A stretch of 12,153 bases of DNA from Chloroflexota bacterium. GTDB taxonomy: Bacteria > Chloroflexota > UBA11872. The DNA lies in NCBI GenBank assembly GCA_026707185.1, contig JAPOXI010000066.1, forward strand, positions 1 to 12,153. The letters are read 5' to 3'. The translations under genes were made by a program, and so were the position numbers. The notes under the pieces are model-generated. The model was given only the letters and a program-made list of their open reading frames with translations, made no database searches and was not told the origin of the DNA. Shown piece after piece: positions 1 through 12,153 of the stretch (position 1 is its first letter; each line of letters starts with the position of its first letter).

Positions 1-75
1 CAGATTGGCCAGGTGCATGGAGGCGATGCCGCCCACGCCAATGAACGCGACTCGCACGGGGGATTGCTCAGGCAT
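1..75 (-). CDS. Gfo/Idh/MocA family oxidoreductase, N-terminal fragment
   Basis: Only the first 25 codons lie in the window; the gene continues off the left edge. The start is the ATG whose complement is at 73-75. The peptide begins MPEQSPVRVAFIGVGGIAS and goes on MHLANL: a beta strand followed by a GxGGIA glycine-rich turn and a helix, the usual opening of the NAD(P)-binding Rossmann fold in Gfo/Idh/MocA sugar or inositol dehydrogenases. The family assignment comes from this N-terminal motif alone, so the substrate cannot be given. The gene is divergent from the potassium transporter operon. A TIM-barrel isomerase-like gene at the other end of the window belongs to a family that often occurs with such dehydrogenases, but the two are 10 kb apart. 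Confidence 0.75.
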   Translation of the reverse strand, partial: MPEQSPVRVAFIGVGGIASMHLANL

Positions 76-105
76 ACGACTTCGGGACCGGCAGCAGACC
101 GCTGA

Positions 106-135
106 AGCCTAGGAGCGGCCCCGCCGGGGCGTCAA
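106..135 (-). promoter_or_regulatory. Possible sigma-70-type promoter for the Gfo/Idh/MocA gene
   Basis: On the minus strand, TTGACG (complement of 130-135) matches the -35 consensus at five of six bases. It is followed after 18 bases by TAGGCT (complement of 106-111), which matches the -10 consensus at three of six. The pair would place transcription start some 20-25 bases before the ATG at 75. A GC-rich 5-bp hairpin (118-130) lies in the spacer. The match is weak and the local composition is high GC, so this is a suggestion only. No convincing promoter was found for the plus-strand transporter operon in 136-324. Confidence 0.2.
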
Positions 136-324
136 CGCGGGTCTACACTGCCCGGCTGTGATGCGGTGCAGGTTGACGCCACTAGTGTCCACTCCGGCTG
201 ACGCGGCCGGTGAGTGGGCGCGGGCCGGATACGCCTGATGCCCGCAGGTCCGCGCCGGCACCACGGCGCCCCACGCCCGCTGGGCGCCGGCGACCGCGTG
301 GTCCGGGTGCCGCGACGAGTATCG

Positions 325-1686
325 ATGAACCTCCAGGTGGAGACGACCCTGGCGCGACGCGGTCCCTTCCGGCCGGGTCTCATCCTCATCACCGCCTTCG
401 CCAGCCTGATATTTCTGGGCACCGTCCTGCTGGCCTTGCCGCTCTCGCTGGCCGATGGCCAGGAGCCGGATCTGCTGGTTGCCTTGTTCACGGCAACCTC
501 CGCCGTGTGCGTCACCGGTCTGACCGTCGTCTCCACCCACGACCATTGGTCCCTGTTCGGGCAGATCGTGATCCTGGCGCTGATCCAGGCCGGCGCCCTG
601 GGCTTCATCGTGGGGGCCATCGTCATCTTCTCGCTGGCCGGCCGGCGCACGTCGACCCGCGAACGCCTGATGTTCGGCCAGCACATTGGACGTGGAGAGC
701 CTGGCGGCCTGAAGGGGCTGTTCTGGCGCATCGCCATCTTCACGCTGATCCTGCAAGGCGCGGGGGCGGTGCTGCTGTTTCTCCGGGTCCGCGGTGATTC
801 GTCGGTGGACAACCCGCACTGGTGGTCGATCTTCCACGCCGTCTCCGCCTTTACCAACGCAGGGTTCGACATCGAGCCCGGCTCCGTCAGCTTCGCGCGG
901 CTGGTTGACGATCCGACGACGGTGGGCATCCTGGCCGCGCTGGCAATCATTGGCGCCATCGGGTTCATGGTGATATTCGATGTCCTGCGTCGTCGGCTGT
1001 GGCGGCGCCTGGGGCTTGAATCTCGCATTGTCCTCACCGCCATGCCGGCGCTTCTGATCGTGGGCTTCGTGCTGCTGATGGTGCTGTCACCCGACTTCGG
1101 CGGCGCGGTGCCGGCGGACGACTTTGGCCTGCGGTCGAACGCCGCGCTGAACCATGCGGTCTGGCGCACGACCGGATTCTCAACCATCGATATGGGTCGT
1201 CTGCACACCGACACGCTGATCGTGCTGATCGTGCTGATGTTCATCGGCGGCGCCTCGGCCGCGGTCACCGGGGGAATCACCGTCAACACCTTCAGCGTGC
1301 TCTTCATAGCGATGGTGTCGCACATACGAGGTCGCCGCTTCCCTGAGGCCTTTGGCCGGCGCATCGCCCAGCACTCGGTCATGCGTGCGCTGGCGGTTGT
1401 TGGACTGTCCGGTGTCGCTGTGCTCCTGGCGACCGTGCTCATGTCTATCGCCGAGCGCGGCTCCGAAACGGTGCTGTCGAACCTGTTGTTCGAGGCCGTG
1501 AGCGCCTTCGCCGTCGTCGGCTATTCGACGGGCATCACGGCCGATCTGACGGTGGCTTCTAAACTCGTGCTGATCGGAACGATGTTCGTCGGCCGCCTGG
1601 GGGCCCTGACGCTTGCCCAGGCGCTCGTCACGCGCGAGCATCAGCCGCTGGTCCGCTTTCCCGAGGAGGCCATCAAGGTCGGTTAG
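325..1686 (+). CDS. ktrB: TrkH/KtrB family potassium uptake membrane subunit
   Basis: This is the ion-conducting subunit of a Trk/Ktr potassium uptake system in the cytoplasmic membrane. The 453-residue length suits the family. All four pore loops of the M1-P-M2 repeats are visible, each with its filter glycine: VTGLTV (G65), TNAGFD (G180), RTTGFS (G284) and VVGYST (G399). Hydrophobic helices lie before and after each loop. A glycine/small-residue stretch at about 308-320 (IGGASAAVTGG) sits where the family has the gating loop below the filter. I chose the ATG at 325 because it gives a normal short N-terminus before the first membrane helix; the frame stays open upstream to a GTG at 214 and an ATG at 238, but the added residues are Arg/Pro-rich and look non-coding. 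The RCK subunit follows 15 bases after the stop, so the two form an operon. Energy coupling (Na+ or H+) cannot be read from the sequence. Confidence 0.93.
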   Translation: MNLQVETTLARRGPFRPGLILITAFASLIFLGTVLLALPLSLADGQEPDLLVALFTATSAVCVTGLTVVSTHDHWSLFGQIVILALIQAGALGFIVGAIVIFSLAGRRTSTRERLMFGQHIGRGEPGGLKGLFWRIAIFTLILQGAGAVLLFLRVRGDSSVDNPHWWSIFHAVSAFTNAGFDIEPGSVSFARLVDDPTTVGILAALAIIGAIGFMVIFDVLRRRLWRRLGLESRIVLTAMPALLIVGFVLLMVLSPDFGGAVPADDFGLRSNAALNHAVWRTTGFSTIDMGRLHTDTLIVLIVLMFIGGASAAVTGGITVNTFSVLFIAMVSHIRGRRFPEAFGRRIAQHSVMRALAVVGLSGVAVLLATVLMSIAERGSETVLSNLLFEAVSAFAVVGYSTGITADLTVASKLVLIGTMFVGRLGALTLAQALVTREHQPLVRFPEEAIKVG

Positions 1687-1701
1687 CCGCCGACCGCGCC
1701 C

Positions 1702-2346
1702 ATGCAAATCCTGGTGACCGGCCTCGGACGGTTCGGAAGCAGCCTGGCCCGTACGTTGGCCGAGTCCGGGCACGAAGTCGTTGTGCTCGACACGTCCGAG
1801 CAAGCCGTCCAAATGGCCACTGACGTCGTCGATCAGGCGGTCGTGGGCGATGCGACGAACGAGGCGGTGCTTCGCGAGGTCGGGGCGACCGACGTGGACC
1901 TGGCCGTGGTGGCCATGGCCGAGGTCGAGGCTAGCGTGCTGATCACGACGCACCTGAAGAACCTGGGCGTGCCGCGCGTCTTCGCGAAGGCCTCCAGCGA
2001 GGTGCACCGCCTGATCCTGGAACGGGTTGGCGCGGACCGCGTGGTTTTTCCCGAGCGCGACATGGCACTGCGGCTGGCCCAGAGCGTGTCCACACCCGGA
2101 ATGCTCGACTACCTGGAACTGTTGCCGCACCTCGGCATCACCGAGATTGACGGCACCCCATTCGCGGGCCAGTCGCTGGCCAACCTGAACCTGGCCGCCC
2201 GCTACGACGTGAACGTGCTGGTCATCAAGCGCGGCAACGAGTTGATCGTGACCCCCGGCCTTTCCGAGCGCGTGAGCGCGGGCGACTTGCTGATCGTGGT
2301 CGGACGCGACAGCCGAATTGCCGAACTACAGACCGCCGCCGGCTGA
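1702..2346 (+). CDS. ktrA: KtrA/TrkA-type RCK regulatory subunit of potassium uptake
   Basis: This is the cytoplasmic regulator that, in this family, forms an octameric ring under the membrane subunit and gates it in response to bound nucleotide. The 214-residue protein has one RCK_N Rossmann domain (about 1-130) with the nucleotide motif GLGRFG at 7-12, the acidic residue D30 at the end of the second strand and the GDAT motif at 49-52. One RCK_C/TrkA_C domain follows (about 135-214), ending GDLLIVVGRDSRIAEL. A single RCK unit of about 220 residues is the KtrA arrangement, whereas classical TrkA has two in tandem; I therefore favour the Ktr name. The ATG at 1702 begins right at the first strand and has no clear Shine-Dalgarno sequence, so translation may depend on reading of the upstream gene. 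Confidence 0.92.
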   Translation: MQILVTGLGRFGSSLARTLAESGHEVVVLDTSEQAVQMATDVVDQAVVGDATNEAVLREVGATDVDLAVVAMAEVEASVLITTHLKNLGVPRVFAKASSEVHRLILERVGADRVVFPERDMALRLAQSVSTPGMLDYLELLPHLGITEIDGTPFAGQSLANLNLAARYDVNVLVIKRGNELIVTPGLSERVSAGDLLIVVGRDSRIAELQTAAG

Positions 2347-2349
2347 TCA

Positions 2350-2363
2350 GCCCGATTCCGGGC
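2350..2363 (+). terminator. Small GC hairpin after ktrA, possible terminator
   Basis: The arms gcccg and cgggc form a 5-bp stem with a 4-base loop, beginning 4 bases after the ktrA stop. No run of T follows, so it does not meet the pattern of an intrinsic terminator; it could be a weak or Rho-assisted end, or chance in GC-rich DNA. Confidence 0.2.
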
Positions 2364-2593
2364 AGGTGTATGGCCTGTGGATGCGCTGTGGACCAGTTGT
2401 ATAACGCACGCGGCCCGGCATAGCAGCGCTGGACGGATCCTGTGTCTGCGGGCGCACTACTCGAAGAGTCGATGTCCATAGCGCTTCCGCCAACGGTGCC
2501 TGAACGAACCGAACGCCTGGCGAACAAGTTGTCCAGATGTTTGATAAGGAGCGATTGACACGCAAGATAGGGGATGTAACCATTCAGGCCCGC

Positions 2594-2611
2594 CTACATG
2601 TAGTATGTAGG
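2594..2611. promoter_or_regulatory. Palindromic site upstream of the nrdJ operon, possible operator
   Basis: A perfect 10-base palindrome ctacatgtag (2594-2603) runs into tatgtagg, giving a second overlapping inverted repeat cctacat(5)atgtagg over 2593-2611. It stands out as relatively A/T-rich against its GC-rich surroundings and lies 80-97 bases before the first start codon of the operon. It does not resemble the NrdR box consensus known from ribonucleotide reductase promoters. The role is unknown. Confidence 0.25.
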
Positions 2612-2690
2612 TCCATCCGTCGCCCTCGTCGCTGGGACCCCGGCATCTGCGTTTAGCGACGATTGGGCAGGGCGAACCGGAGTGGGGGGT

Positions 2691-3038
2691 GTGGCGGTGA
2701 TCAGACTGCTCGGCGAACTGCACCGCACGCGCGACGGTCGGCAGTTCGCCATAGATTTCGCGCAGGTCATTCCGTCGACCGGGGCCTATGACCTCGTCCT
2801 CTTCGGCCTGCGGCACGCGGAAACGGAGTTTTCGATGGGTGTGGCCTTCCCGCAGGACTCCGCCGGCACCTGGGGCGCGCACGACGCCCTGGTTCGGGAA
2901 GGCCTGGGACAGATCCGCACAGAGCTTGAGCGTGGTAATACTGAGGACGGGTCTCTGGTCGAGATCCCTTCCGCCACGTGGGGAGGGTGGCGACCGAGCT
3001 ACAGGTTCTCGGTTCCATCAAAGACGCGTTATGCCTAG
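2691..3038 (+). CDS. Small protein of unknown function, translationally coupled to nrdJ
   Basis: I do not recognise the family. The protein is 115 residues, soluble, without Cys pairs, signal peptide or membrane segment. An amphipathic N-terminal part (VIRLLGELHRTRDG) is followed by alternating strand-like stretches (FAIDFAQVI, DLVLFGLRHAE) and a helix rich in Glu/Arg (ALVREGLGQIRTELERG). G/C is favoured at third codon positions through most of its length, as in neighbouring genes, which supports real coding. I chose the GTG at 2691 because GGAG at 2679-2682 stands 8 bases before it; GTG codons at 2682 and 2697 are alternatives. Its end overlaps nrdJ in ATGCCTAG (3031-3038), where the ATG starts nrdJ and the TAG ends this frame. 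The overlap implies joint transcription and likely coupled translation, so it may act with the reductase or in nucleotide metabolism, but this is inference. Confidence 0.6.
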   Translation: MAVIRLLGELHRTRDGRQFAIDFAQVIPSTGAYDLVLFGLRHAETEFSMGVAFPQDSAGTWGAHDALVREGLGQIRTELERGNTEDGSLVEIPSATWGGWRPSYRFSVPSKTRYA

Positions 3039-5634
3039 GGGCGGTACGACGTATCCGGACCTTTCCGACAACGCGCTGGCCGTGCTGCGCAAGCGCTACT
3101 TCCTGAAGGATCGCGTCGACCACCCCATCGAAGATACGGACGAGTTCTTTGACCGCGTCGTGCGCGGCGTCGTGGACGTGGAGCGCGAGCGGGGCTGGGT
3201 GGACGCCGACGGCCACACCGAGATCGTTGATGCCATGTATGACCTGCTGCGCGGGTTGCGCTTCGTCCCCAACAGCCCCTGCCTGATGAACGCGGGCAAG
3301 CCGCAGGGCTACGCGCAGATGGCGGCCTGCTTCGTGCTGCCCATCGACGACGACCTGCTCAGCATCAAGACCACCGACATGCACGCGGCCATCATCCACC
3401 AGAGCGGCGGCGGCACGGGCTTCAACTTCTCGCGCATCCGCCCGCGCGGCGACTTCGTGCGCAGCTCCGGCGGCGTGGCCAGCGGCCCGATCAGCTTCAT
3501 GTCGATGATCGACTACTCCTGCGGCGAGATTAAGCAGGGCGGCACGCGCCGCGGCGCCAACATGGGCATCCTCAACGTCGACCACCCGGACATCCTCGAC
3601 TTCATCGAGTGCAAGACCGAAGACGGCCGGATCGCCAACTTCAACATCTCCGTGGGCATCACCGACGCCTTCATGCAGGCCGTGCGTGACGACACCGATT
3701 ACGAGCTGGTCAACCCACGCACCCAAGAGGTGACGAAGCGGCTGCGCGCCCGCGACGTCTGGGACCGCCTGGTCGACGGCGCCTGGCTGAACGGCGAACC
3801 GGGGATGATCTTCCTGGACCGGCTGGAGCGCACCAACCCGACGCCGGACGTGGCGCTGCAGGACACCACCAATCCCTGCGGCGAACAGCCGTTGCTGCCC
3901 TACGAGGCCTGCGTGCTGGGCAGCCTGAATCTGAACTGGCACCTCACCGAGGACCGCACGCGCATCGACTGGAAGGCTCTGCGCCGTGACGTGCACCTGT
4001 CCGTCCGCTTCCTGGACGACATGGTTGAGGCCTCCAACTTCCCGCTCAAGGAAATCGACGACATCGTCAAGCACGGCAACCGCCGTGTGGGCCTGGGCGT
4101 CATGGGCTGGGCCGACGTGCTGTTCCACCTGGGTCTGCCCTACGACAGCCCCGAAGCCGAGGCGCTGGCCAGCGACGTCATGCAATTCATCAACGATGAA
4201 GGCCGGCGTGCTTCCGAGGAACTGGCCGCCGCTCGCGGCGCGTTCCCCAACTTCACCAACTCGGCCTGGGACCGCAAGGGCCATGCGGAGCGGCGCAACG
4301 CGACCGTCACCACCATCGCGCCCACCGGCACGATCAGCATGATCGCGGACGCCTCCAGCGGTATCGAACCGCTGTTCGCGCTGATCTTCTGGAAGAACGT
4401 GATGCGCGACAGCGACGACAACGCCGCCACCACGCTGCGCTACGTAAATCCGATCTTCGAGACCTACGCGCGCCGCCGCGGCTTCTTCAGCGAAGAGCTG
4501 GTGGACGCCATTGAGGCCAACCACGGCAGCCTGCGGATCACCGATGAGACGCCGGCGGACGCTCGCCAGGTGCTGGAGGGCGTGCCGGAATCGGCCCGCC
4601 GCATCTTCGTGACTGCCCACGATGTCTCGCCCGAGTGGCACATCCGCGTCCAGAGCGCCTTCCAGGCGCACACCGAGAACGCGGTGTCCAAGACGATCAA
4701 CTTCCCGCACGAGGCCACCCGCGAGGACGTGGAACGCGGCTACTGGCGGGCCTACGAACTGGGCTGCAAGGGCGTGACCGTCTACCGCGACGGCAGCCGT
4801 GACTTCCAGGTGCTGACCACCAGCGACAGCGGCGACAAGACGCGCCGCGACGAGACCGATGAGCCGCAGGCCGCCGAGGCCCTGGCGCCCGTCGCCGAGG
4901 CCCCCGCACCAGTGGCCGCCTCGGTCAACGGCCACGGCAACGGCCACGCGCCCGAGTTGACGCCAACGCCGGCAGCCAACGGGGCCTCGGACGACCACGC
5001 CGACCGCACGCCGCTGCCAATCGTGGCCGCGGTCGAGCGCGAGCGGCCCGACCAGATTCACGGCACCACCACCCGCATCCGCACGGGCTGCGGTCCGCTG
5101 TTCGTCACGATCAACGACGACGAGCGCGGGCTGCCGTTCGAGACCTTCGCGACGCTTGGCAAGGCCGGCGGTTGCGCCGCCGCGCAGACCGAAGCCATCG
5201 GCCGGCTGGCGTCGCTGGCGCTGCGCTCAGGCGTACCGGTCGACGAGGTGCATAAGACTTTGCGCGGGATCACCTGCCACCGGCCCGCCGGGTTCGGCCC
5301 CGAGCGGGTGCTTTCCTGCGGCGACGGGATCGCGCAGGCGATGGCCAAGCGGATCGACGTCGAGAACGGCGACTTCGTCCCCATGGTGGATCTGCAGGGC
5401 GAGGGCACCTACACGCCCCCAGCCGAGCAACCCGCAGCTACGACAGCATCCGCGACCCGCCAGTCCGCACCGACCTTCGGCAGCGGTTCGGCCCCGGCGG
5501 CCGAGACCTACGTTGAGGGCGCGGCCCGCGACCAGGGCTTCGTGGGCGCCTGCCCATCCTGCGGCGGCAGCCAACTCCACTACGCCGAGGGCTGCATGAA
5601 ATGCGTGTCCTGCGGCTACAGCGACTGCGGGTAG
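3031..5634 (+). CDS. nrdJ: Adenosylcobalamin-dependent (class II) ribonucleoside-diphosphate reductase
   Basis: It reduces ribonucleotides to deoxyribonucleotides, using adenosylcobalamin to generate the active-site thiyl radical; no separate radical subunit is needed. The 867 residues comprise a catalytic barrel (about 1-590), an Ala/Pro/His-rich linker (about 591-672), a TSCPD domain (about 674-775, with [14 protein letters not shown] and [11 protein letters not shown]), a second linker and a Cys-rich tail. The catalytic motif NPCGE is at 281-285: C283 should carry the thiyl radical, with N281 and E285 assisting. C100 (MAACFVLP) and C294, 11 residues after C283, match the redox pair of characterised class II enzymes. 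[11 protein letters not shown] (125-) and APTGTIS (430-436) are further family signatures. The tail has CPSC (841-844) and CMKCVSC (855-861), ending CGYSDCG, which in the family re-reduces the active site. I chose the ATG at 3031 because family-like sequence ([16 protein letters not shown]) begins ten residues later; there is no good ribosome binding site, consistent with coupling to the overlapping upstream gene. No cobalamin riboswitch was seen upstream. Confidence 0.97.
5515..5634 (+). repeat. Direct repeat, copy 1: 3' end of nrdJ
   Basis: The last 120 bases of nrdJ recur at 6645-6764 in the same orientation, at an offset of 1130. The 54 bases 5581-5634, including the stop codon, are identical in both copies. 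In 5521-5580 there are eight differences (5523, 5526, 5541, 5543, 5556, 5559, 5574, 5580); seven are silent third positions and one (5543) changes Val to Ala. Similarity ends at the base after the stop and fades before 5515. Confidence 0.93.
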
Positions 5635-6402
5635 GTGAGTCCGGCAAAACGCCGTCCTAAGTCGTCGAGGTCCTACAGAGGCAAGCTGACGATTTCCGAA
5701 GTTGCGTCGGGTATTGAATCGGCGTATCACTCGGCTGAGGCGGCGTATGGAGCTGCAGTTGCCTCTCATCAGGCTGATCAGGACCGTGCAGCGGCACTTG
5801 CCTACCTGGACGTAATTCAGGAAGTCGGCCGACTTCATTCACTCCGTGGCATGGCCGCAATTCACCCACGAGACCAGAAGGCATGGAAGGAGAGTTGGTC
5901 ACGCCAACGGAGGCACGACTTCCGAATCGCATACGCGCTCGGTGACGCTCAAAGGGCTCTCGGAGGTCTGAAGGACATAAGGGGATTCGTAAGAGAGATC
6001 TTCGAAATCGCCATTTCCTATGCACCGTCCTATGAAGTTTTCAGAAAGCGCATGAACTACACGGACTTCGATCCGGAATCACGACAGTGGCTGTCTTCTC
6101 TTGAACCGACCGCAGAGGAATTGGACCAGCTCTCGGCGATCGCAGGGCTGGTCTTCGGCCGTGCAACCGCGCTCAGGTCACTTGGTCTGCTGAAGGAAGA
6201 AGCCCTTCAGGTCGTGCATGAAGAGCTGGCCTCCCTGCACTTTGAATTCAGGCGTAAGTTCCTAGGTGACCCGAAGTCAATGCTAGGCATGACTCTCAGT
6301 CGGGAAACGGTCACTGCTTGGCAGTGTTGCTGGCGTCGATTCAACGAGGAGCTAGGCATCGACCCAGACCAAGCGGAAGCGCTACTCGGGCCGATCAGTT
6401 AG
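5635..6402 (+). CDS. Orphan hypothetical protein carried between the nrdJ-tail repeats
   Basis: I do not recognise this 255-residue protein. It appears soluble and almost wholly helical. A basic N-terminus (KRRPKSSRSYRGK) precedes a long Ala/Glu-rich helical part (EVASGIESAYHSAEAAYGAA), a stretch with several Arg/Lys (WSRQRRHDFRIAYALGDAQR), and helices containing FRKRMNYTDFDPE, then AWQCCWRRF near the end. No signal peptide, membrane segment or catalytic motif is evident. The GTG start at 5635 follows the nrdJ TAG without a spacer and has no clear ribosome binding site, so expression may rely on ribosomes finishing nrdJ; the next internal Met is about residue 74, within continuous helical sequence. 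Codon use is more A/T-tolerant than in the neighbours (for example gaa, aag, ttc/ttt and agg/aga are mixed), consistent with foreign origin. The role is unknown; a cargo or accessory function is inferred from position only. Confidence 0.75.
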   Translation: MSPAKRRPKSSRSYRGKLTISEVASGIESAYHSAEAAYGAAVASHQADQDRAAALAYLDVIQEVGRLHSLRGMAAIHPRDQKAWKESWSRQRRHDFRIAYALGDAQRALGGLKDIRGFVREIFEIAISYAPSYEVFRKRMNYTDFDPESRQWLSSLEPTAEELDQLSAIAGLVFGRATALRSLGLLKEEALQVVHEELASLHFEFRRKFLGDPKSMLGMTLSRETVTAWQCCWRRFNEELGIDPDQAEALLGPIS

Positions 6403-6644
6403 CAGTAGCCACATTGAGTTGAACGGGACTCGCAATGTGCGGACTATGGTCGTACATCCAATCCGGGTTCCCTGCTTTCCCGATTCCGCCTGGCTAGGAA
6501 TGCCCTTCCGTCAGTCTGGTGACGAAGTAGTGGCGAGGGCGTCGAGCTAGACGAGTGTGATGCCTCGACGTGGGAGTGGTCGACCGACATCTGGCGTGGT
6601 TCCGTGGTGTGGCCGTCCAGGACTTGTGCTTAGTCGGATCGAAA
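6403..6644. other. Non-coding part of the cassette with two hairpins
   Basis: No credible gene was found. A hairpin at 6410-6439 follows the orphan gene. A second imperfect hairpin lies at 6505-6527 (cttc-c-gtca / tgac-gaag, 6-base loop). A frame that runs into the second nrdJ tail is open from a GTG at 6570, but its first 25 codons have no similarity to nrdJ upstream sequence. Confidence 0.4.
6410..6439 (+). terminator. Hairpin downstream of the orphan gene, possible terminator
   Basis: The arms cacattg (6410-6416) and caatgtg (6433-6439) pair, and agt/act extend the stem across a two-base bulge, leaving an 8-base loop. It begins 8 bases after the stop codon. A T-run is absent, so factor-independent termination is doubtful. 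Confidence 0.3.
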
Positions 6645-6764
6645 GAGCACGCCGCGCGCGACCAGGGCTTTGCGGGCGCCTGCCCCTCATGCGGCGGCAG
6701 CCAGCTCCATTACGCCGAGGGCTGCATGAAATGCGTGTCCTGCGGCTACAGCGACTGCGGGTAG
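6645..6764 (+). pseudogene. Second copy of the nrdJ 3' end (partial gene, Cys-rich tail only)
   Basis: These 120 bases encode EHAARDQGFAGACPSC, continue through the complete Cys-rich tail and end in CGYSDCG and a TAG stop. From AARDQGF on, 36 of 37 residues equal the nrdJ C-terminus. All six tail cysteines (CPSC, CMKCVSC and the penultimate Cys) are kept, and most base differences from copy 1 are silent. Sequence upstream of 6645 has no similarity to nrdJ, so the catalytic and TSCPD parts are missing. The frame is open back to a GTG at 6570, which would give a 64-residue protein, but no good ribosome binding site precedes it. Most likely it is a leftover fragment from recombination; a free-standing redox-tail mini-protein is a less likely alternative. 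It converges with the ankyrin gene ending at 6819. Confidence 0.8.
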
Positions 6765-6818
6765 CGCCAGACCTGCCAATCCGGACCGCCAGATTCGGTC
6801 GGCGAGTTCCGTTGCGGG

Positions 6819-7781
6819 CTAGGCGCTAGGTACCGCCGGCTTGGTTCCGGACCGTAGCTCGTCAATCAGTTGCCGCAGGGTCGGTTCGCTCCAATAGAGA
6901 TCGCCGACCTCGGCGCCGCGATTCAGCAGGACCAGCATCGTAGCCCGATCACCTCGAAGCGCCGCCGATTCAAGCGGGGTCCTGCCGAATTCGTCCTTCG
7001 CCTCGATGTCCGCGCCGTAATCCAGAAGAATCCCGACCAGGTCGTACTTGGCATCCTCGGCCGCCGCGTGCAGCGCGGGATCGCCGTACTTGTTTATGGC
7101 CTCAACGTTGACGCCATGCTCGAGCAACATCCTCACAATGGCTGGCTCACCGCCTGCAATTGCCGCCAGCAGCGCGTTATGCCCCAGGTAGTCCCTGGCC
7201 TCGGTATCGGCGCCGTGTTCAAGGAGCAGAGCGACGATGGCCGGATGGCGGGCATCGATGGCCGCGAGGAGCGCTGTGTCGCCAATCCAGTCAAAGCCCT
7301 CGGTAAAGGTGCCCTGCTTCAGCGATGCGGCGATAGTTCCGATGATCTTCGCTACCGCCCGATGCAGAGGATTCGCCCCAATATCGTCGCGGGCCTCGAT
7401 GTCCGCGCCGTGCTCTAGCAGGAGCGAAACCGTGTCGGGGTTGCCACCCTCAATGGCGGCGTGCAGGGGAGTATTGTGGAAATCGTCTCTGGCCTCGATA
7501 TCGGCACCGTGCTCCAGCAGCACCGCGACCGCGGCCGGCTCCGCGCCGTATCGTGCTGCCAGATGTAGCGGGGTTCGGCCTAAACCGTCTTGCGATCCAA
7601 GCCCAGGACCGCAGGCCACCATGAGGCGCGCCTCGGAAACACTCGCGCTGGCCCAGTACGCCTCCGAGACGTATCGGTACGTCAGATACGACCTGTCGAC
7701 ACACGGGATCCTTAGAGGCTCCGGCCCCGGCTTCGAGGCGCCGCCGCAGGCCGCTGACCAGGCGGCGAACACCATGAGCAT
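6819..7781 (-). CDS. Ankyrin-repeat lipoprotein (smaller paralogue)
   Basis: This is a surface-anchored protein-protein interaction module of unknown partner. With the ATG at 7781 the protein has 320 residues. It opens with a very short hydrophobic signal MLMVFAAWSAAC with a lipobox-like SAAC (C12), so it is probably lipidated and held on the outer face of the membrane. A capping segment (about 32-64, RYVSEAYWASASVSEARLMVACG) precedes about seven ankyrin repeats with the TPLHLAA ... LLEHGADIEARD pattern; the third (NPLHRAVAKIIGTIAASLKQG) and the last are degenerate. The frame stays open upstream to 8159, but those extra codons are Arg/Pro-rich and overlap the neighbouring ankyrin gene. The short signal lacks the usual positive N-terminus, so a rare non-ATG start a little upstream (adding PSRNWNLTAWVG) is possible. 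The neighbour at 7906-9615 is a paralogue on the same strand, 124 bases upstream. Confidence 0.85.
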   Translation of the reverse strand: MLMVFAAWSAACGGASKPGPEPLRIPCVDRSYLTYRYVSEAYWASASVSEARLMVACGPGLGSQDGLGRTPLHLAARYGAEPAAVAVLLEHGADIEARDDFHNTPLHAAIEGGNPDTVSLLLEHGADIEARDDIGANPLHRAVAKIIGTIAASLKQGTFTEGFDWIGDTALLAAIDARHPAIVALLLEHGADTEARDYLGHNALLAAIAGGEPAIVRMLLEHGVNVEAINKYGDPALHAAAEDAKYDLVGILLDYGADIEAKDEFGRTPLESAALRGDRATMLVLLNRGAEVGDLYWSEPTLRQLIDELRSGTKPAVPSA

Positions 7782-7823
7782 TCCGACCCACGCCGTCAGA
7801 TTCCAGTTTCTTGACGGCAGGGT

Positions 7824-7873
7824 TCGAGGTCGAGACTGTCGACCTCGACGAGAACAGCCGGCGTTGCGCCGGC
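7824..7873. other. Two adjacent hairpins between the ankyrin genes
   Basis: A perfect 10-bp stem tcgaggtcga / tcgacctcga with a 5-base loop occupies 7824-7848. A 7-bp stem gccggcg / cgccggc with a 3-base loop occupies 7857-7873. They begin 33 bases past the stop of the larger ankyrin gene (minus strand) and 43 bases before the start of the smaller one. Neither is followed by a T-run in either direction. They may attenuate or protect the transcript between the two genes. Confidence 0.35.
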
Positions 7874-7905
7874 GTTGGCGGCGAAAGACTTCGTGGGGAT
7901 CGAGC

Positions 7906-9615
7906 TCAGGTTCCCGCGGCATGTTCCTCAAGCACCTGAGCGGTCGCACGATTGCCGGCGGCCAGGGCCAGGTCAAGCGGCGTGGCACCGTCGTTGTCCT
8001 CGGCTTCGAGGTCGGCGCCACGTTCGAGGAGGAGGGCGACAACGTCCGCACTTCCAAAGTAGGCCGCGAAATGCAGGGGCGACCAGCTGTCCTTGTCCCG
8101 TGCTTCCAGGTCGGCACCCGAGTCCAACAGGAGCTGAACGACTGCCAGGGTCTCTCCACTGGCCGCGAAATGCAGGGGCGTCCAGTCGTCCTCGTCCCGT
8201 GCTTCCAGGTCGGCGCCGGCGTCCAGCAGGAGCTTCACAACTGCCAGGGCTTCTACGTTGGCCGCGAAGTGCAGGGGCGTCCAATCGTCGTCGTCCCGTG
8301 CTTCCAGGTCGGCGCCGGCTTCCAGCAGGAGCTGTGCGTAGACCGGGTCCTCCAACTCGGCTGCCGCATGCAGGGGTGTGATGCCGCCCTCGGCCCTGGC
8401 TTCGAGGTTTGCGCCACGGCCAATCATCAGTTCGACCAGTTCTGGATCCGCCTCGTACGCGAGCGCCAGATGCAGGGGTGTGACTTGTTCGACAGCGCGG
8501 GCTTCCAGGTTCGCGCCGCGCTCCAGCAAAGCGTGGACGACGGCCGGTTCGTTGTTGAACGTGACGGCCCAATGAAGAGGGGTGATACCGTCAGCAGCTT
8601 TCGCTTCCACGTCGACACCGAGATCCAGCAGGGCCATGACCATAGCGGGCTTGGGGTGAAAGCCTGCTGCCCAGTGCAGTGCCGTGAATCCGTGGTCGCT
8701 CCGCGCCTCCGGGTCGGCCCCCAAGCGATGCAGAAGAGCCACCATGGTCGGTAGCTCGCCCGCGGTCGCCGCGAGCAACAGCGGAGTCAAGGTGCGGTCG
8801 TCTCGAGCTTCGAGGTCAGCTCCTCGCTTCACCAGCACGGAAAGTGCCTCCGGCTGGCCTCCATATAGCGCCGCCGTGTGCAGAGGTGTCCAGCCGCCAT
8901 CACTTCGCGCGTTCGGGTCAGCGCCGTAATCTATGAGAACGGCCAACACTTTCGGTTCAGAATTGCTAAGTGCTGCGACATGGAGGGGAGTCAATCCGGG
9001 CCTCGACTTTGAGCTGACGTTGGCACCAAACTCCAGCAGGGCGGCAACCACGGCCGGCTCGATGCTGAGTGCGGCCGCGTGATGTAGCGGGGTCAGCCCT
9101 CTACCGTCCGTAACGGTGACGCTCGCACCGCAGTTCAACGCGGCTTGCACGTCGGCAAGCGTCGCTCCGACCCAAAACTCCTTGCTGAGCCAGCGAGTCT
9201 CGTTCACGAGTTCGGCACAGACCACGGCCGTCGATTCCGGTGGCGTCGTGGGTTCGGGCGTGGGGGTTGGCGATTGCGTCTTGGTCGGTTCGGGTTCCGG
9301 GCGCGCTGCTGGCGTAGACGCTGGCGCCGGCGAAGCGGTGACCGGCGAGACCACCGCTTGCGTTGGTCGGGTTGCCGAGCGTGGACTCGGGGTCGACACC
9401 GGGGTGGGCGACGGTGGAACCGGCGACGCCACGGCTTGTGTTGGCGAGGCCGTGGCGGTGGCCGATTGATCAAGCGCCGGCGCTGGCTCGGATGCTTCGC
9501 CGCAGGCGATCAGCGCTAGCATCGCCACGCCCAGCAGCGGCATTCCCCACCGCGCCAGCAGAATCCACCTGAACGACGGATGAATCGCCGCTTGTGACTG
9601 GCTCCGCGCGTCCAA
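7906..9615 (-). CDS. Ankyrin-repeat lipoprotein with Pro/Thr stalk (larger paralogue)
   Basis: This 569-residue protein begins with a hydrophobic segment ending in the lipobox LIAC (C38; MPLLGVAMLALIACG), so it should be exported and lipid-anchored. A low-complexity Pro/Thr/Ser/Ala stalk follows (about 42-130), as is common in lipoproteins that hold a domain away from the membrane. After a cap (about 134-169, RWLSKEFWVGATLADVQAALNCGA) come about twelve ankyrin repeats to the C-terminus. The first seven are 34 residues long (TPLHxAA...EPxVVxALLxxGANLEARA). The later ones are the canonical 33 and nearly identical to each other (DDWTPLHFAA ... LLLDAGADLEARD). The start is uncertain: TTG at 9615 supplies a charged n-region (RWILLARWG), with GGAG some 13 bases before it, while ATG at 9543 would start directly at the hydrophobic core. 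Function and partner are unknown; nothing suggests an enzyme. The hydrolase gene ends 79 bases upstream on the same strand. Confidence 0.88.
   Translation of the reverse strand: MDARSQSQAAIHPSFRWILLARWGMPLLGVAMLALIACGEASEPAPALDQSATATASPTQAVASPVPPSPTPVSTPSPRSATRPTQAVVSPVTASPAPASTPAARPEPEPTKTQSPTPTPEPTTPPESTAVVCAELVNETRWLSKEFWVGATLADVQAALNCGASVTVTDGRGLTPLHHAAALSIEPAVVAALLEFGANVSSKSRPGLTPLHVAALSNSEPKVLAVLIDYGADPNARSDGGWTPLHTAALYGGQPEALSVLVKRGADLEARDDRTLTPLLLAATAGELPTMVALLHRLGADPEARSDHGFTALHWAAGFHPKPAMVMALLDLGVDVEAKAADGITPLHWAVTFNNEPAVVHALLERGANLEARAVEQVTPLHLALAYEADPELVELMIGRGANLEARAEGGITPLHAAAELEDPVYAQLLLEAGADLEARDDDDWTPLHFAANVEALAVVKLLLDAGADLEARDEDDWTPLHFAASGETLAVVQLLLDSGADLEARDKDSWSPLHFAAYFGSADVVALLLERGADLEAEDNDGATPLDLALAAGNRATAQVLEEHAAGT
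8062..8335. repeat. 99-bp tandem repeats inside the larger ankyrin gene
   Basis: Three units start with ggccgcgaa at 8062, 8161 and 8260, exactly 99 bases apart; the third is similar as far as about 8335. The block gtcccgtgcttccaggtcggc recurs at 8095, 8194 and 8293. Each unit encodes one 33-residue ankyrin repeat. The near identity at DNA level, unlike the other repeats of the gene, points to recent duplication or gene conversion among these units. Confidence 0.9.
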
Positions 9616-9694
9616 TATGCCCGCCGCTCCGCAATTGCCGGCTCGTGCCGATCAGTCTAAGTCGGCCTCATAACTGACTGGTTGGTCGGTCGGG

Positions 9695-10477
9695 TTAGAT
9701 TCCCTCCGCCAGCCAGGCCACGAAGTCGCGGCGGGGGGTGGGGTGCTTGAGGAGTTCGATGCCGTGGCCGGGGGTGTCGTAGACCGACACCTTGCGGGGT
9801 TCGGCAGTGCGGCTGTAGAGGGCTTGCGACTGGAGCGCCTCTTCGCGGTCGGACTGGAAGAGCACGCCGCGGGGTTGGAAGTTGGCAATGTCCTCGCCCA
9901 TGAGCAGGCGGCCGGGTTCGAAGCGTCCGCTGACGGCCACGGCCCGTCGTATGGCGGGAACCACAGAGGATGCGATCCAGGCCGTGTTGGCCCCCACGCT
10001 GGCGCCGCCGACGCCGAGGCGGTTCGAGTCGATGTCGCTGCGGGCCGTGAGCCAGGCGACGGCGGCGGCCACATCGGTCGGCCAGCCGTCCAGGGTGTTG
10101 GCCCGGTCGGTTTCGAAGTCGTATCCGCCGTCGTCTCGCACGCGCCGCAGGCTCTCGCCGTGGGCGCGCGCGTCGGGCGCCAGCACCGCCAGGCCGGCCG
10201 CCAGCAAATCGGACGTCAGGTCGTCCCACTGGGCGCGCGTGCCCTGGTACTGATGCATCAGCACGACGGCCGGCCAGGGCGGGGCGCTGTCGGGCGGGGT
10301 GAAGGTGGCGACGACCTGGATGCCATCGGCGGTGCGGTAGGTCACGTTGCCACTGTCGGAGTCAGCGAACGGCAGCGGCGGCAGGGCCGGCGGATCGGCA
10401 CAGCCGGCCAGCGCGCCGGCACCGAGCGCCAATCCCGCCGAAAGCACTGCTCGACGCGTCAGCTGCCGCGGATGCAC
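9695..10477 (-). CDS. Exported alpha/beta hydrolase (dienelactone-hydrolase-like), Tat lipoprotein signal
   Basis: The 260-residue protein has the alpha/beta-hydrolase plan: an oxyanion-type turn after the third strand (VVLMHQYQG, about 71-79), APDARAHGES (100-109), the nucleophile elbow GGASVGA with S160, an acidic residue in FQSDREE (D210) and the histidine in DTPGHG (H238). S160/D210/H238 is the likely catalytic triad. The substrate is unknown; esters or peptides are typical of the family. The N-terminus TRRAVLSAGLALGAGALAGC joins a twin-arginine-like pair (R8-R9) to a lipobox (LAGC, C26), so it is probably exported, folded or not, and lipid-anchored. The GTG at 10477 is the only sensible start in frame; no clear ribosome binding site was found. 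It is divergent from the isomerase gene at 10602, the 124 bases between presumably holding both promoters. Confidence 0.87.
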   Translation of the reverse strand: MHPRQLTRRAVLSAGLALGAGALAGCADPPALPPLPFADSDSGNVTYRTADGIQVVATFTPPDSAPPWPAVVLMHQYQGTRAQWDDLTSDLLAAGLAVLAPDARAHGESLRRVRDDGGYDFETDRANTLDGWPTDVAAAVAWLTARSDIDSNRLGVGGASVGANTAWIASSVVPAIRRAVAVSGRFEPGRLLMGEDIANFQPRGVLFQSDREEALQSQALYSRTAEPRKVSVYDTPGHGIELLKHPTPRRDFVAWLAEGI

Positions 10478-10601
10478 GTCGGAATCTGTTTGTGGCTCAG
10501 CATGATTCCCAATCGTATGCCCGCCGCCGGCCTCAGGACGGGTTATCCGCGATGACGTACGGTGCGAGTGGTTCCTGGATGCCGGGACAGAGAGTGGCTG
10601 A

Positions 10602-11504
10602 ATGCAGGTAGCGCTGTCGGGGCTGCTGTTTGACCACGCGCCGGCCGCCGACTTCGCCGCCGCGGCGCGGGAGATTGGCTACGGCAGCGTGGAGCTGCGC
10701 GGTACGCGCCACCAGCTACCGCCTGACGCGGATGCCGCGCGCCTTGGACTCCTCCTGGGACTCTTCGAGGGGCTGGAGATCGCCAACATCGCCTCCCACG
10801 CCGGCAACTTCGCGCTGCTGGACGAGCCGGAGGCCCTGGAGGCCCGCCAAGCGGCGCATCGGTTTCTGAGGTGGGCCGCCGTGCTGGGGGCTCGTAGCGT
10901 GCGGGTCTGGCCGGGCTGGGTGGCGGCCCCGGAAGCCGAGCCCGAGCACTGGGAACGAGCCGCGCGCCACCTGCGCTGGTGCGCCGACGCGGCGGCTGAT
11001 CTGGATGTGATGGTGGCGATTGAGATGCATCACGGATCGCTGGCCGAAACGGCGGCCGGCGCCAACCGGCTGCTGGACGAGATCGATCGGCAGGCGATTG
11101 GGCTGATTCTCGATCCGGCCAACCTGATGCAGACGCCCACGCCGTTCGGGCCTCGCTGCGTCGGTGCGGTCTGGGACCGCCTGCTGCACGTGCACGTCAA
11201 GGATCACTCCATCGTCGGTCCCGCCGAACTGGGGGCCTACCCGTTTCGGCTCTACCTTGAGCACATCGGCAGCTGGATCGAGCGCATGGAACCGCCGCGC
11301 CGCCGGCTGGGTCCCGGCTGGTTTGCCAAGCGGGCGCTGGGCGAAGGCCACGTGCCCTGGCCGTCGATCCTGGCCGAGTTGAAGCGCCGCGGCTATACCG
11401 GACACTTGATCGTGGAGACGGAAGTCGGACCCGGCGTGCCCACGGGGCGTACCCTGGCCGAGCGCGAGTTCATGACGATGAGCCGCTGGATGGAGGCGCT
11501 GTGA
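10602..11504 (+). CDS. Sugar phosphate isomerase/epimerase family protein (xylose isomerase-like TIM barrel)
   Basis: The 300-residue protein matches the AP-endonuclease-2/xylose-isomerase-like TIM barrel in length and in its strand-end metal ligands: E141 in VAIEMHH, D171 in LILDPANLM, H196/H198 in LLHVHVKDH and E272 in HLIVETEVG. In this family a divalent metal at these residues supports isomerisation or epimerisation of sugars or inositols, or dehydration; the exact substrate cannot be told. The segment GYGSVELRG near the N-terminus (26-34) is the usual first Glu-bearing strand. LGEGHVPWPSILAELKRRGYTG (from about 246) is the typical C-terminal strand and helix. The ATG at 10602 is preceded by agagagtgg, a fair ribosome binding site. 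Its stop overlaps the next gene in GTGA, so the two are translated together. Confidence 0.88.
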   Translation: MQVALSGLLFDHAPAADFAAAAREIGYGSVELRGTRHQLPPDADAARLGLLLGLFEGLEIANIASHAGNFALLDEPEALEARQAAHRFLRWAAVLGARSVRVWPGWVAAPEAEPEHWERAARHLRWCADAAADLDVMVAIEMHHGSLAETAAGANRLLDEIDRQAIGLILDPANLMQTPTPFGPRCVGAVWDRLLHVHVKDHSIVGPAELGAYPFRLYLEHIGSWIERMEPPRRRLGPGWFAKRALGEGHVPWPSILAELKRRGYTGHLIVETEVGPGVPTGRTLAEREFMTMSRWMEAL

Positions 11505-12153
11505 CGGATCTGGAGACGCGCCCGCTGGAAGCCCGGCACCTGCCAGTCGCGGCGGCGCTGTGCCGGCGCGAGATCGCGTACCTGCCCTTCTCGGAGGCCA
11601 TCCTCCAGGACCGCATCCTGGACGATCCCGACTTCGATCCCGATCTCAATCCGACAGTCTGGCAAGGCGAGCAGCTGGTAGCAATGGCCTGTGGGGCTCC
11701 GCCCAGCGAGGAGCTGCAGACGGCCGGCGGGGTCAAGCTGTTCGCCGTCGCGAGCGACCTGCGCCGCCAGGGCATCGCGACCCGGCTGTTCGACCACATC
11801 GAGGACCGGCTGACCGGCCTGGGCGCCGGCGAATCCGTGGCGATCATCGCCGGCAACAACCGCTTCATGCAGGGCCTGGACCTGCGATACACCGAGGCGC
11901 TGTGCTTCCTGGAGGCTCGGGGCTACGAGCGCTCGGGCGATGGGATGGACATGGACGTGGATCTGCGCAACACGCCGCTGGACACTTCGAAGAAGGAAGA
12001 GGAGCTGGAGCGCGACCACGGCCTGCGCGTGCGTCGGCTGACGATGGACGACTACCAGCAGGCATGGGACTACGTGGCGCGTGAGTTCGAGTACCCCAGC
12101 GCCCTGGCCACGGACCCCGTCGGACGGCGCTGGGCCTACCTGGCGACCTCGGG
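11501..12153 (+). CDS. GNAT family N-acetyltransferase, probably two-domain (3' end missing)
   Basis: The frame starts at the GTG of the GTGA overlap with the isomerase stop and stays open for 217 codons to the edge of the window. The first domain (about 1-160) carries the GNAT core: strand KLFAVASDL and the acetyl-CoA pyrophosphate loop RRQGIA (88-93), followed by a helix (TRLFDHIEDRL), then a strand VAIIAGNN and the C-terminal part LCFLEARGYERSG, typical of motif B. From about residue 175 a new domain seems to open with LRVRRLTMDDYQQAWDYV, the usual first strand and helix of a second GNAT unit, so a tandem GNAT protein is likely. The substrate is unknown. Coupling to the isomerase suggests that both work on one compound, but that is inference. 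Confidence 0.85.
   Translation, partial: MTDLETRPLEARHLPVAAALCRREIAYLPFSEAILQDRILDDPDFDPDLNPTVWQGEQLVAMACGAPPSEELQTAGGVKLFAVASDLRRQGIATRLFDHIEDRLTGLGAGESVAIIAGNNRFMQGLDLRYTEALCFLEARGYERSGDGMDMDVDLRNTPLDTSKKEEELERDHGLRVRRLTMDDYQQAWDYVAREFEYPSALATDPVGRRWAYLATS

Follow-up and report, generated by a model that had tools for sequence, protein, structure and literature searches.

A second nrdJ tail behind an AbiV-like gene in a Chloroflexota bacterium: probable scar of recombination between versions of one locus

The window analysed here is a 12,153-nucleotide stretch of a Chloroflexota bacterium (assembly GCA_026707185.1, contig JAPOXI010000066.1, positions 1 to 12,153). It contains an intact nrdJ gene, an AbiV-like gene starting directly behind it, a decayed piece of a neighbouring hydrolase gene, and then a second copy of the nrdJ tail, beyond which lie two ankyrin-repeat genes and the hydrolase gene itself. 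The features are as follows.

3031–5634, forward strand: nrdJ, class II (B12-dependent) ribonucleotide reductase gene, intact, 867 aa (NCBIfam NF006417, 999 bits, cut-off 961; 21 related loci)
5520–5634, forward strand: nrdJ tail copy 1, read in the frame of the working gene (self-BLAST of the window)
5635–6402, forward strand: AbiV-like gene, 255 aa, with a GTG start codon immediately following the nrdJ stop (57% identity over 95% to protein P0002; own scores under both AbiV cut-offs)
6500–6656, reverse strand: decayed fragment of the hydrolase gene 3' end, with a stop codon and frame breaks (self-comparison, gapped alignment, frame translations)
6650–6656, no strand: junction, the 7-bp microhomology CGCCGCG, common to the hydrolase gene (9865–9871) and the nrdJ tail as spelled in the related locus L001
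6650–6764, forward strand: nrdJ tail copy 2, lacking an nrdJ body and interpreted as the resident tail after displacement (self-BLAST, translations, comparison with relatives)
6819–7900, reverse strand: ankyrin-repeat gene, member of an nrdJ-ankyrin-hydrolase arrangement (Pfam Ank_2, 2.9e-53; relatives); the start codon is unsettled, the open reading frame (ORF) being listed to 8159
7906–9615, reverse strand: second ankyrin-repeat gene, 569 aa (Pfam Ank_2, 5.8e-126)
9695–10477, reverse strand: alpha/beta hydrolase gene (dienelactone-hydrolase-like), intact, convergent to nrdJ (Pfam DLH, 8.9e-10; position kept in relatives)

Comparison of the window with itself yielded a direct repeat of 115 bp (5520–5634 versus 6650–6764; 93.0% identity, E 1.6e-44), which in its 120-bp form (5515–5634 and 6645–6764) is 92% identical with a spacing of 1130. 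The last difference is at 5580, and the final 54 bases, including the stop codon, are identical. The duplicated nrdJ 3' end reported in the initial annotation (120 bases recurring 1130 bases downstream, the last 54 identical) was thus confirmed. The first bases of the repeat overlap the 7-bp microhomology, and the nrdJ-derived part of copy 2 starts within 6650–6657. Of the 8 differences between the two tails over 115 bp, 7 are synonymous and one changes an amino acid; at 5 of the 8, tail 2 carries a base present in the working tails of at least one of 12 relatives, and T at 5541 was found, among the 12 relatives compared, in tail 2 and L001 only. Under random substitution with transitions favoured, at least 7 synonymous changes (P 2.3e-4) and at least 5 relative-matching ones (P 2.5e-4) are both rare, and the two together occurred in 0 of 200,000 draws. 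Since most of the changes in tail 2 are synonymous and match relatives, this tail seems to have diverged mostly inside a working nrdJ, and it looks like the displaced tail of a working nrdJ allele rather than a rebuilt copy. Gene conversion might likewise have preserved tail 2, but the states copied in this way would be those of tail 1, not of relatives.

The segment between the tails had been described as holding a single orphan gene. The AbiV-like ORF was indeed judged from the ORF list to be its sole gene, but a decayed remnant of the hydrolase 3' end is also present there: 6504–6626 matches 9702–9826 (71% over 125 columns, E 9e-10) and 6633–6656 matches 9848–9871 (87.5%, 24 bp), and a single gapped alignment spans 6500–6656, like 9702–9871. 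Since a hydrolase 3' end lies ahead of tail 2, the insert is a slice of this same locus. The hydrolase fragment ends, and tail 2 begins, at CGCCGCG (6650–6656); the bases that make this spelling, C at 5523 and G at 5526, occur in 8 of the 12 relatives and not in tail 1 of the window. The homology available at one end is the nrdJ tail (115 bp, 93%), while the microhomology at the other is 7 bp, within the 3–10 bp quoted for illegitimate joining. A recent import of the hydrolase fragment from one of the compared relatives was considered and rejected, since among the 21 loci and the window it matches the window's own hydrolase end and those of 6 loci, at 69–72% (in L007 65.9%, across a longer alignment), with no one of them standing out as nearer.

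The AbiV-like gene has a G+C content of 56%, versus 68% for nrdJ. Its product scores below the cut-offs of both AbiV families, whereas its close homologue P0002 passes them (28.2 bits for PF18728 and 31.4 bits for TIGR04498), and we therefore use the name AbiV-like. The GTG start is supported by the alignment of the window protein and P0002 from M1. A structure predicted from 2 sequences is all-helical, with a mean predicted local distance difference test score of 53.9, too low for comparing folds. In a 2013 survey, AbiV was placed among the HEPN domains, with the usual histidine typically absent and another conserved (PMC3710099). The window protein resembles that family in being homologous to P0002 but differs in its own sub-threshold scores and in being known here from sequence alone. 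Judged by its family, the gene probably encodes a phage-defence function; it is also probably co-transcribed with nrdJ. PADLOC gave no match, and a search with the window protein found a match in 1 of 8 genomes (32%). With P0002 as query, only distant matches (27–29%) were found, in 1 of 19 genomes of the family, 1 of 41 of the class and 2 of 400 genomes drawn from the phylum, and PF18728 matched in 1 of 13 relatives and 0 of 14 controls. The single match in the 8-genome, family, class and PF18728 searches is one and the same place, on contig C241 of genome G003, the nrdJ tail of which is on contig C331. Four stretches of viral contigs fitted a pattern, none of which was confirmed.

A scan of genome contigs gave 21 related nrdJ loci, all records of metagenome-assembled genomes (MAGs), 18 of them labelled Chloroflexi or Chloroflexota (L001–L018). 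Judging by their isolate names, many of these 18 MAGs are presumably derived from sponges. The family to which the genome of L010 belongs is represented in the collection by 19 genomes, namely those of L001–L017 together with G011 and G012, and the next conserved gene behind nrdJ is the convergent hydrolase in 12 of them. The DNA in front of this hydrolase varies: 1) In L004, L014 and L017, nrdJ and the hydrolase match are separated by 72–83 bp alone, with neither cargo. 2) In seven loci (L001, L002, L003 and L005–L008), ankyrin-type genes lie between the two, as judged by DNA matches and reading frames. 3) In L010, a sister lineage, 447 bp follow nrdJ, with an abiV-like start 13 nt past the nrdJ stop and, on the other strand, a remnant resembling an ankyrin gene (Ank_2 E 0.031, not reaching the cut-off). 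4) In L016 (1574–4743), an 896-aa ORF that reaches no Pfam cut-off and looks by eye like a membrane protein is preceded by a 37-bp second hydrolase 3' end. 5) In L009, the hydrolase seems to follow nrdJ closely, the hydrolase end itself not aligning. The abiV-like remnant of L010 matched P0002 but not the window protein in an earlier comparison; repetition with another matrix and shuffling supports both, each score being reached by 0 of 2000 shuffles. In a further 6 of the 19 genomes (L011, L012, L013, L015, G011 and G012), the conserved neighbour is PEPCK, separated from nrdJ by a membrane-protein-like gene, and in L015 a fragment of the PEPCK 3' end (13295–13423) precedes the intact PEPCK gene. 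Second copies of neighbour-gene ends at the locus vary in length between genomes from 37 bp to about 200 bp; a further hydrolase-end match of 38–45 bp in L001 is weak (E 4e-4) and was not counted as firm.

It had been suggested that relatives be examined for nrdJ running straight into the DNA that follows 6764 of the window. Such relatives were found, namely the seven ankyrin loci (67.6–76.6% over stretches including the tail), so that tail 2 leads into ankyrin DNA as the working nrdJ does in those loci. Relatives without the segment are what any insertion would give. A second nrdJ tail was present in only 1 of the 19 family genomes (G005, the genome of L011), and among the other 22 genomes of the class only G026 gave nrdJ-tail matches, two short ones (43 and 29 bases) far apart.

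The order in L011 is nrdJ, memA, a PEPCK 3' fragment (residues 512–579, 79%), a broken nrdJ tail, memB and PEPCK; in its close relative G012, it is nrdJ, memB (98%) and PEPCK. The search for other cargo between nrdJ tails, also proposed earlier, was therefore positive, with a different gene at that place. The nrdJ tail-memB-PEPCK stretch of G012 aligns in one piece (94%) to L011 from the second tail onward, and the G012 locus also aligns, at 83% overall, to the nrdJ-memA-PEPCK fragment half; alignment to both halves is what a row of two versions of the same locus should give. Outside the insert, L011 and G012 are 86–99% identical in 200-bp bins, versus 66–72% in the memA bins. Taken together, the alignments and bins place the second tail of L011 where G012 has its working tail, with memA and the PEPCK fragment in front of it. 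memA and memB are 53% identical, compared with 52–66% for the same gene between species, close pairs excepted (86 and 98%), and memA falls outside the clade of memB and the G012 gene. By these sequence comparisons, L011 shows the anatomy of the window with other genes in an independent assembly, and G012 shows the unstacked state. The pair points to the downstream tail being the resident one, a matter on which the window by itself is silent.

We consider it probable that the segment in the window is a recombination scar, in which a relative's version of the same locus was added ahead of the resident one. The incoming slice would have comprised an nrdJ tail, abiV and an (already decayed) hydrolase 3' end, and the resident nrdJ tail, ankyrin genes and hydrolase would now lie behind it. 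One end would have been placed by homology inside nrdJ, and the other joined at CGCCGCG, the microhomology that the hydrolase fragment has with the nrdJ tail. Two routes are conceivable: i) homology-facilitated illegitimate recombination (HFIR), or ii) closure of the fragment into a circle followed by one crossover in the tail. Either route would leave nrdJ intact with one tail and strand the other about 1.1 kb downstream. A foreign origin of the insert may be hinted at by its low G+C content, by the allele-like tail and, in the parallel case, by the position of the L011 cargo outside the resident clade.

Several observations weigh against this interpretation. First, the hydrolase fragment (about 71%, with broken frames) is far more decayed than tail 2. 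Such unequal decay means that one simple event is insufficient: either the fragment had become a scar by the time of the join, or conversion has preserved tail 2. We regard the former as probable from the sequences compared, since scars of this kind do occur, as indicated by short extra copies of hydrolase or PEPCK ends in L016, L015 and, weakly, L001. Second, the junction is known from one assembled sequence, and a 7-bp match is less telling in G+C-rich DNA. Third, no donor genome with the order nrdJ-abiV-hydrolase was found; in the 41 class genomes, the insert DNA matched no abiV, its 3 matches falling in the hydrolase part; and the L010 remnant was absent from whole-genome protein searches at E 0.001, resting on the targeted comparison. 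Fourth, the window protein remains under the AbiV cut-offs (14.3 bits for PF18728, cut-off 27.1; 25.5 bits for TIGR04498, cut-off 27). Fifth, in L011, memA groups with G011 with a support of only 0.56, about 100 bp of unassigned DNA separates the PEPCK fragment from tail 2, and an old duplication within the lineage is still conceivable.

An alternative is a tandem duplication in place. The nrdJ tail, the hydrolase 3' end and whatever lay between them would have been doubled in one genome, abiV later entering one copy and the ankyrin genes the other, and the outcome would be nrdJ tail, X, hydrolase end, nrdJ tail, Y, hydrolase, as observed. In its favour, nrdJ and hydrolase lie only 72–83 bp apart in three loci, and in L011 both units carry related genes, as a duplication would give. 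However, where tail 2 departs from tail 1 it shows synonymous states of relatives rather than random changes; the matches of abiV and of the ankyrin genes are to separate families, so that two further insertions would be needed; the L011 cargo genes are as unlike as genes of different species; and the hydrolase fragment and tail 2 have decayed unequally. We consider this duplication improbable. Equally improbable is a chimera, in which the loci of two strains (nrdJ-abiV and nrdJ-ankyrin) were joined during assembly. Strains do mix in MAG records such as the related loci, and the two halves resemble two alleles, but the join shares just 7 bp exactly, less than the exact overlap that assemblers usually need, and the same anatomy recurs in the independent assembly of L011. 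The AbiV-like protein is also present on 2 contigs (P0001, the longest being 5802 bp), which argues against an artefact, though these contigs are not informative on the join itself.

The initial annotation had proposed an element that enters the nrdJ 3' end and rebuilds it. The part of that proposal which stands is that nrdJ is intact and that DNA was added at its 3' end; a mobile element with the tail as its attachment site is not supported. Such an element, integrating site-specifically into the tail and restoring the gene with a recombinase supplied from elsewhere, would account for direct repeats flanking a low-G+C cargo beside an intact host gene, and for a second genome (L011) with other cargo between nrdJ tails. 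We nevertheless hold it to be very unlikely. The insert terminates in a fragment of the neighbouring hydrolase gene, tail 2 resembles a displaced allele, the lengths of the neighbour-gene fragments vary, and a second tail is confined to one family genome. No constant core repeat or ends were recognized, as L011, the one other case, has different fragment ends and a broken stranded tail. As the initial annotation had noted, the segment encodes no recombinase, neither the AbiV-like ORF nor a 64-aa ORF between the tails matching one. Tyrosine integrases (PF00589) were found in 19 of 19 relatives, but in no case was one listed on the contig carrying nrdJ, apart from the single-contig G004, where the distance is about 280 kb or more; many contigs are short, and the search did not extend to serine recombinases. 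Stronger evidence against a site-specific element than this integrase result comes from the neighbour-gene fragment in the insert and from the unlike ends. None of the papers retrieved by a literature search on nrdJ as an integration site describes one, judging by titles and abstract openings. Ancestral presence of the whole order nrdJ-abiV-hydrolase fragment-tail-ankyrin, with loss of abiV elsewhere by recombination between the tails, has in its favour that the two remnants in L010 stand in the window's order, but it is highly improbable given that L004, L014 and L017 have neither cargo and that tail 2, which should have decayed unless kept by conversion, is one amino-acid change from tail 1 in 115 bp.

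Three known systems come closest. In published work on Escherichia coli, such fragments were seen to close into circles again and to integrate through a single crossover, which left duplications of 109–950 bp of the homologous locus in 14 sequenced clones, and 3–10 bp of microhomology is quoted for the illegitimate route (PMC3240628). The present case is similar in having about 1 kb of putatively foreign DNA with homology at one end, microhomology within that range at the other, and a duplication of 115 bp. It differs in being a natural product, the incoming piece being read as an allelic locus, whereas the E. coli events were selected in the laboratory; moreover, HFIR usually deletes resident DNA, whereas the window seems to have lost little or none. 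For displaced effector genes and stacked arrays of immunity genes in the type VI secretion clusters of Vibrio cholerae, a similar reading has been given (PMC5361080). As in this displacement and that of rhs C-termini, a homology-anchored module pushes the old gene end and the downstream gene back, stranding 3' ends, but effector ends are variable, while the anchor in the window is a conserved housekeeping gene whose tail sequence is kept. Finally, the small variable segments that have been attributed to illegitimate recombination among strains (PMC2884548) are likewise short non-mobile differences between relatives at one locus; these are mostly 20–500 bp, compared with a whole gene of about 0.77 kb plus partial copies of both neighbours here. 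We read the segment as a new case of a known, accidental kind of recombination, which seems to happen repeatedly at this spot; a new mobile element is improbable.

The nrdJ gene itself bears signs of exchange. From about 3400 to 5500, the window is 97–100% identical to L001 in 200-bp bins (94–100% in 150-bp bins), upstream of about 3400 the identity drops to 82–94%, with one intergenic 200-bp bin at 68%, and 4401–4700 is 100% identical to L017. These similarities suggest that the window nrdJ is a mosaic, with recent nrdJ exchange between species. Since such exchange seems to happen, homology-assisted events are plausible at nrdJ, although it does not date the insertion. The L001-like tract (3400–5500) was rejected as the donor tract of the insertion, the L001 tail differing from tail 1 at 6 of 115 sites. 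Upstream, a 118-aa ORF (2682–3038) overlaps the nrdJ start. DNA matches cover most of it in relatives, out to L010 (79%) and L009 (72%), and it may encode a conserved nrdJ partner.

The ankyrin genes behind nrdJ in the window (6819–9615) and in L001, L003, L006 and L008 have, by eye, two types of C-terminus (..LYW.. and ..ATPLDLA..). Both types recur in the DNA that separates nrdJ from the hydrolase, their number and order differing among loci, and in L001 the short weak second hydrolase end sits between two ankyrin blocks.

More tentatively, and at less than even odds in our judgement, the 3' side of nrdJ in this Chloroflexota family may be a recombinase-free stacking site, where slices of relatives' loci are repeatedly added ahead of the resident slice, each stranding the ends of its neighbours (the nrdJ tail, and the hydrolase or PEPCK 3' end). 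If so, accessory genes, including a phage-defence-like one, would pile up behind a housekeeping gene in the manner of integron cassettes, by homology and microhomology alone. On the main reading, what had appeared to be a new integration site becomes a readable record of how accessory genes can be gained between two conserved genes without a recombinase. The stranded neighbour ends mark the order of events, and L011 and G012 show the locus after and before such an addition. Should many loci of these bacteria bear such marks, the share of gene gain due to homology-assisted illegitimate recombination could be counted from stranded ends alone.

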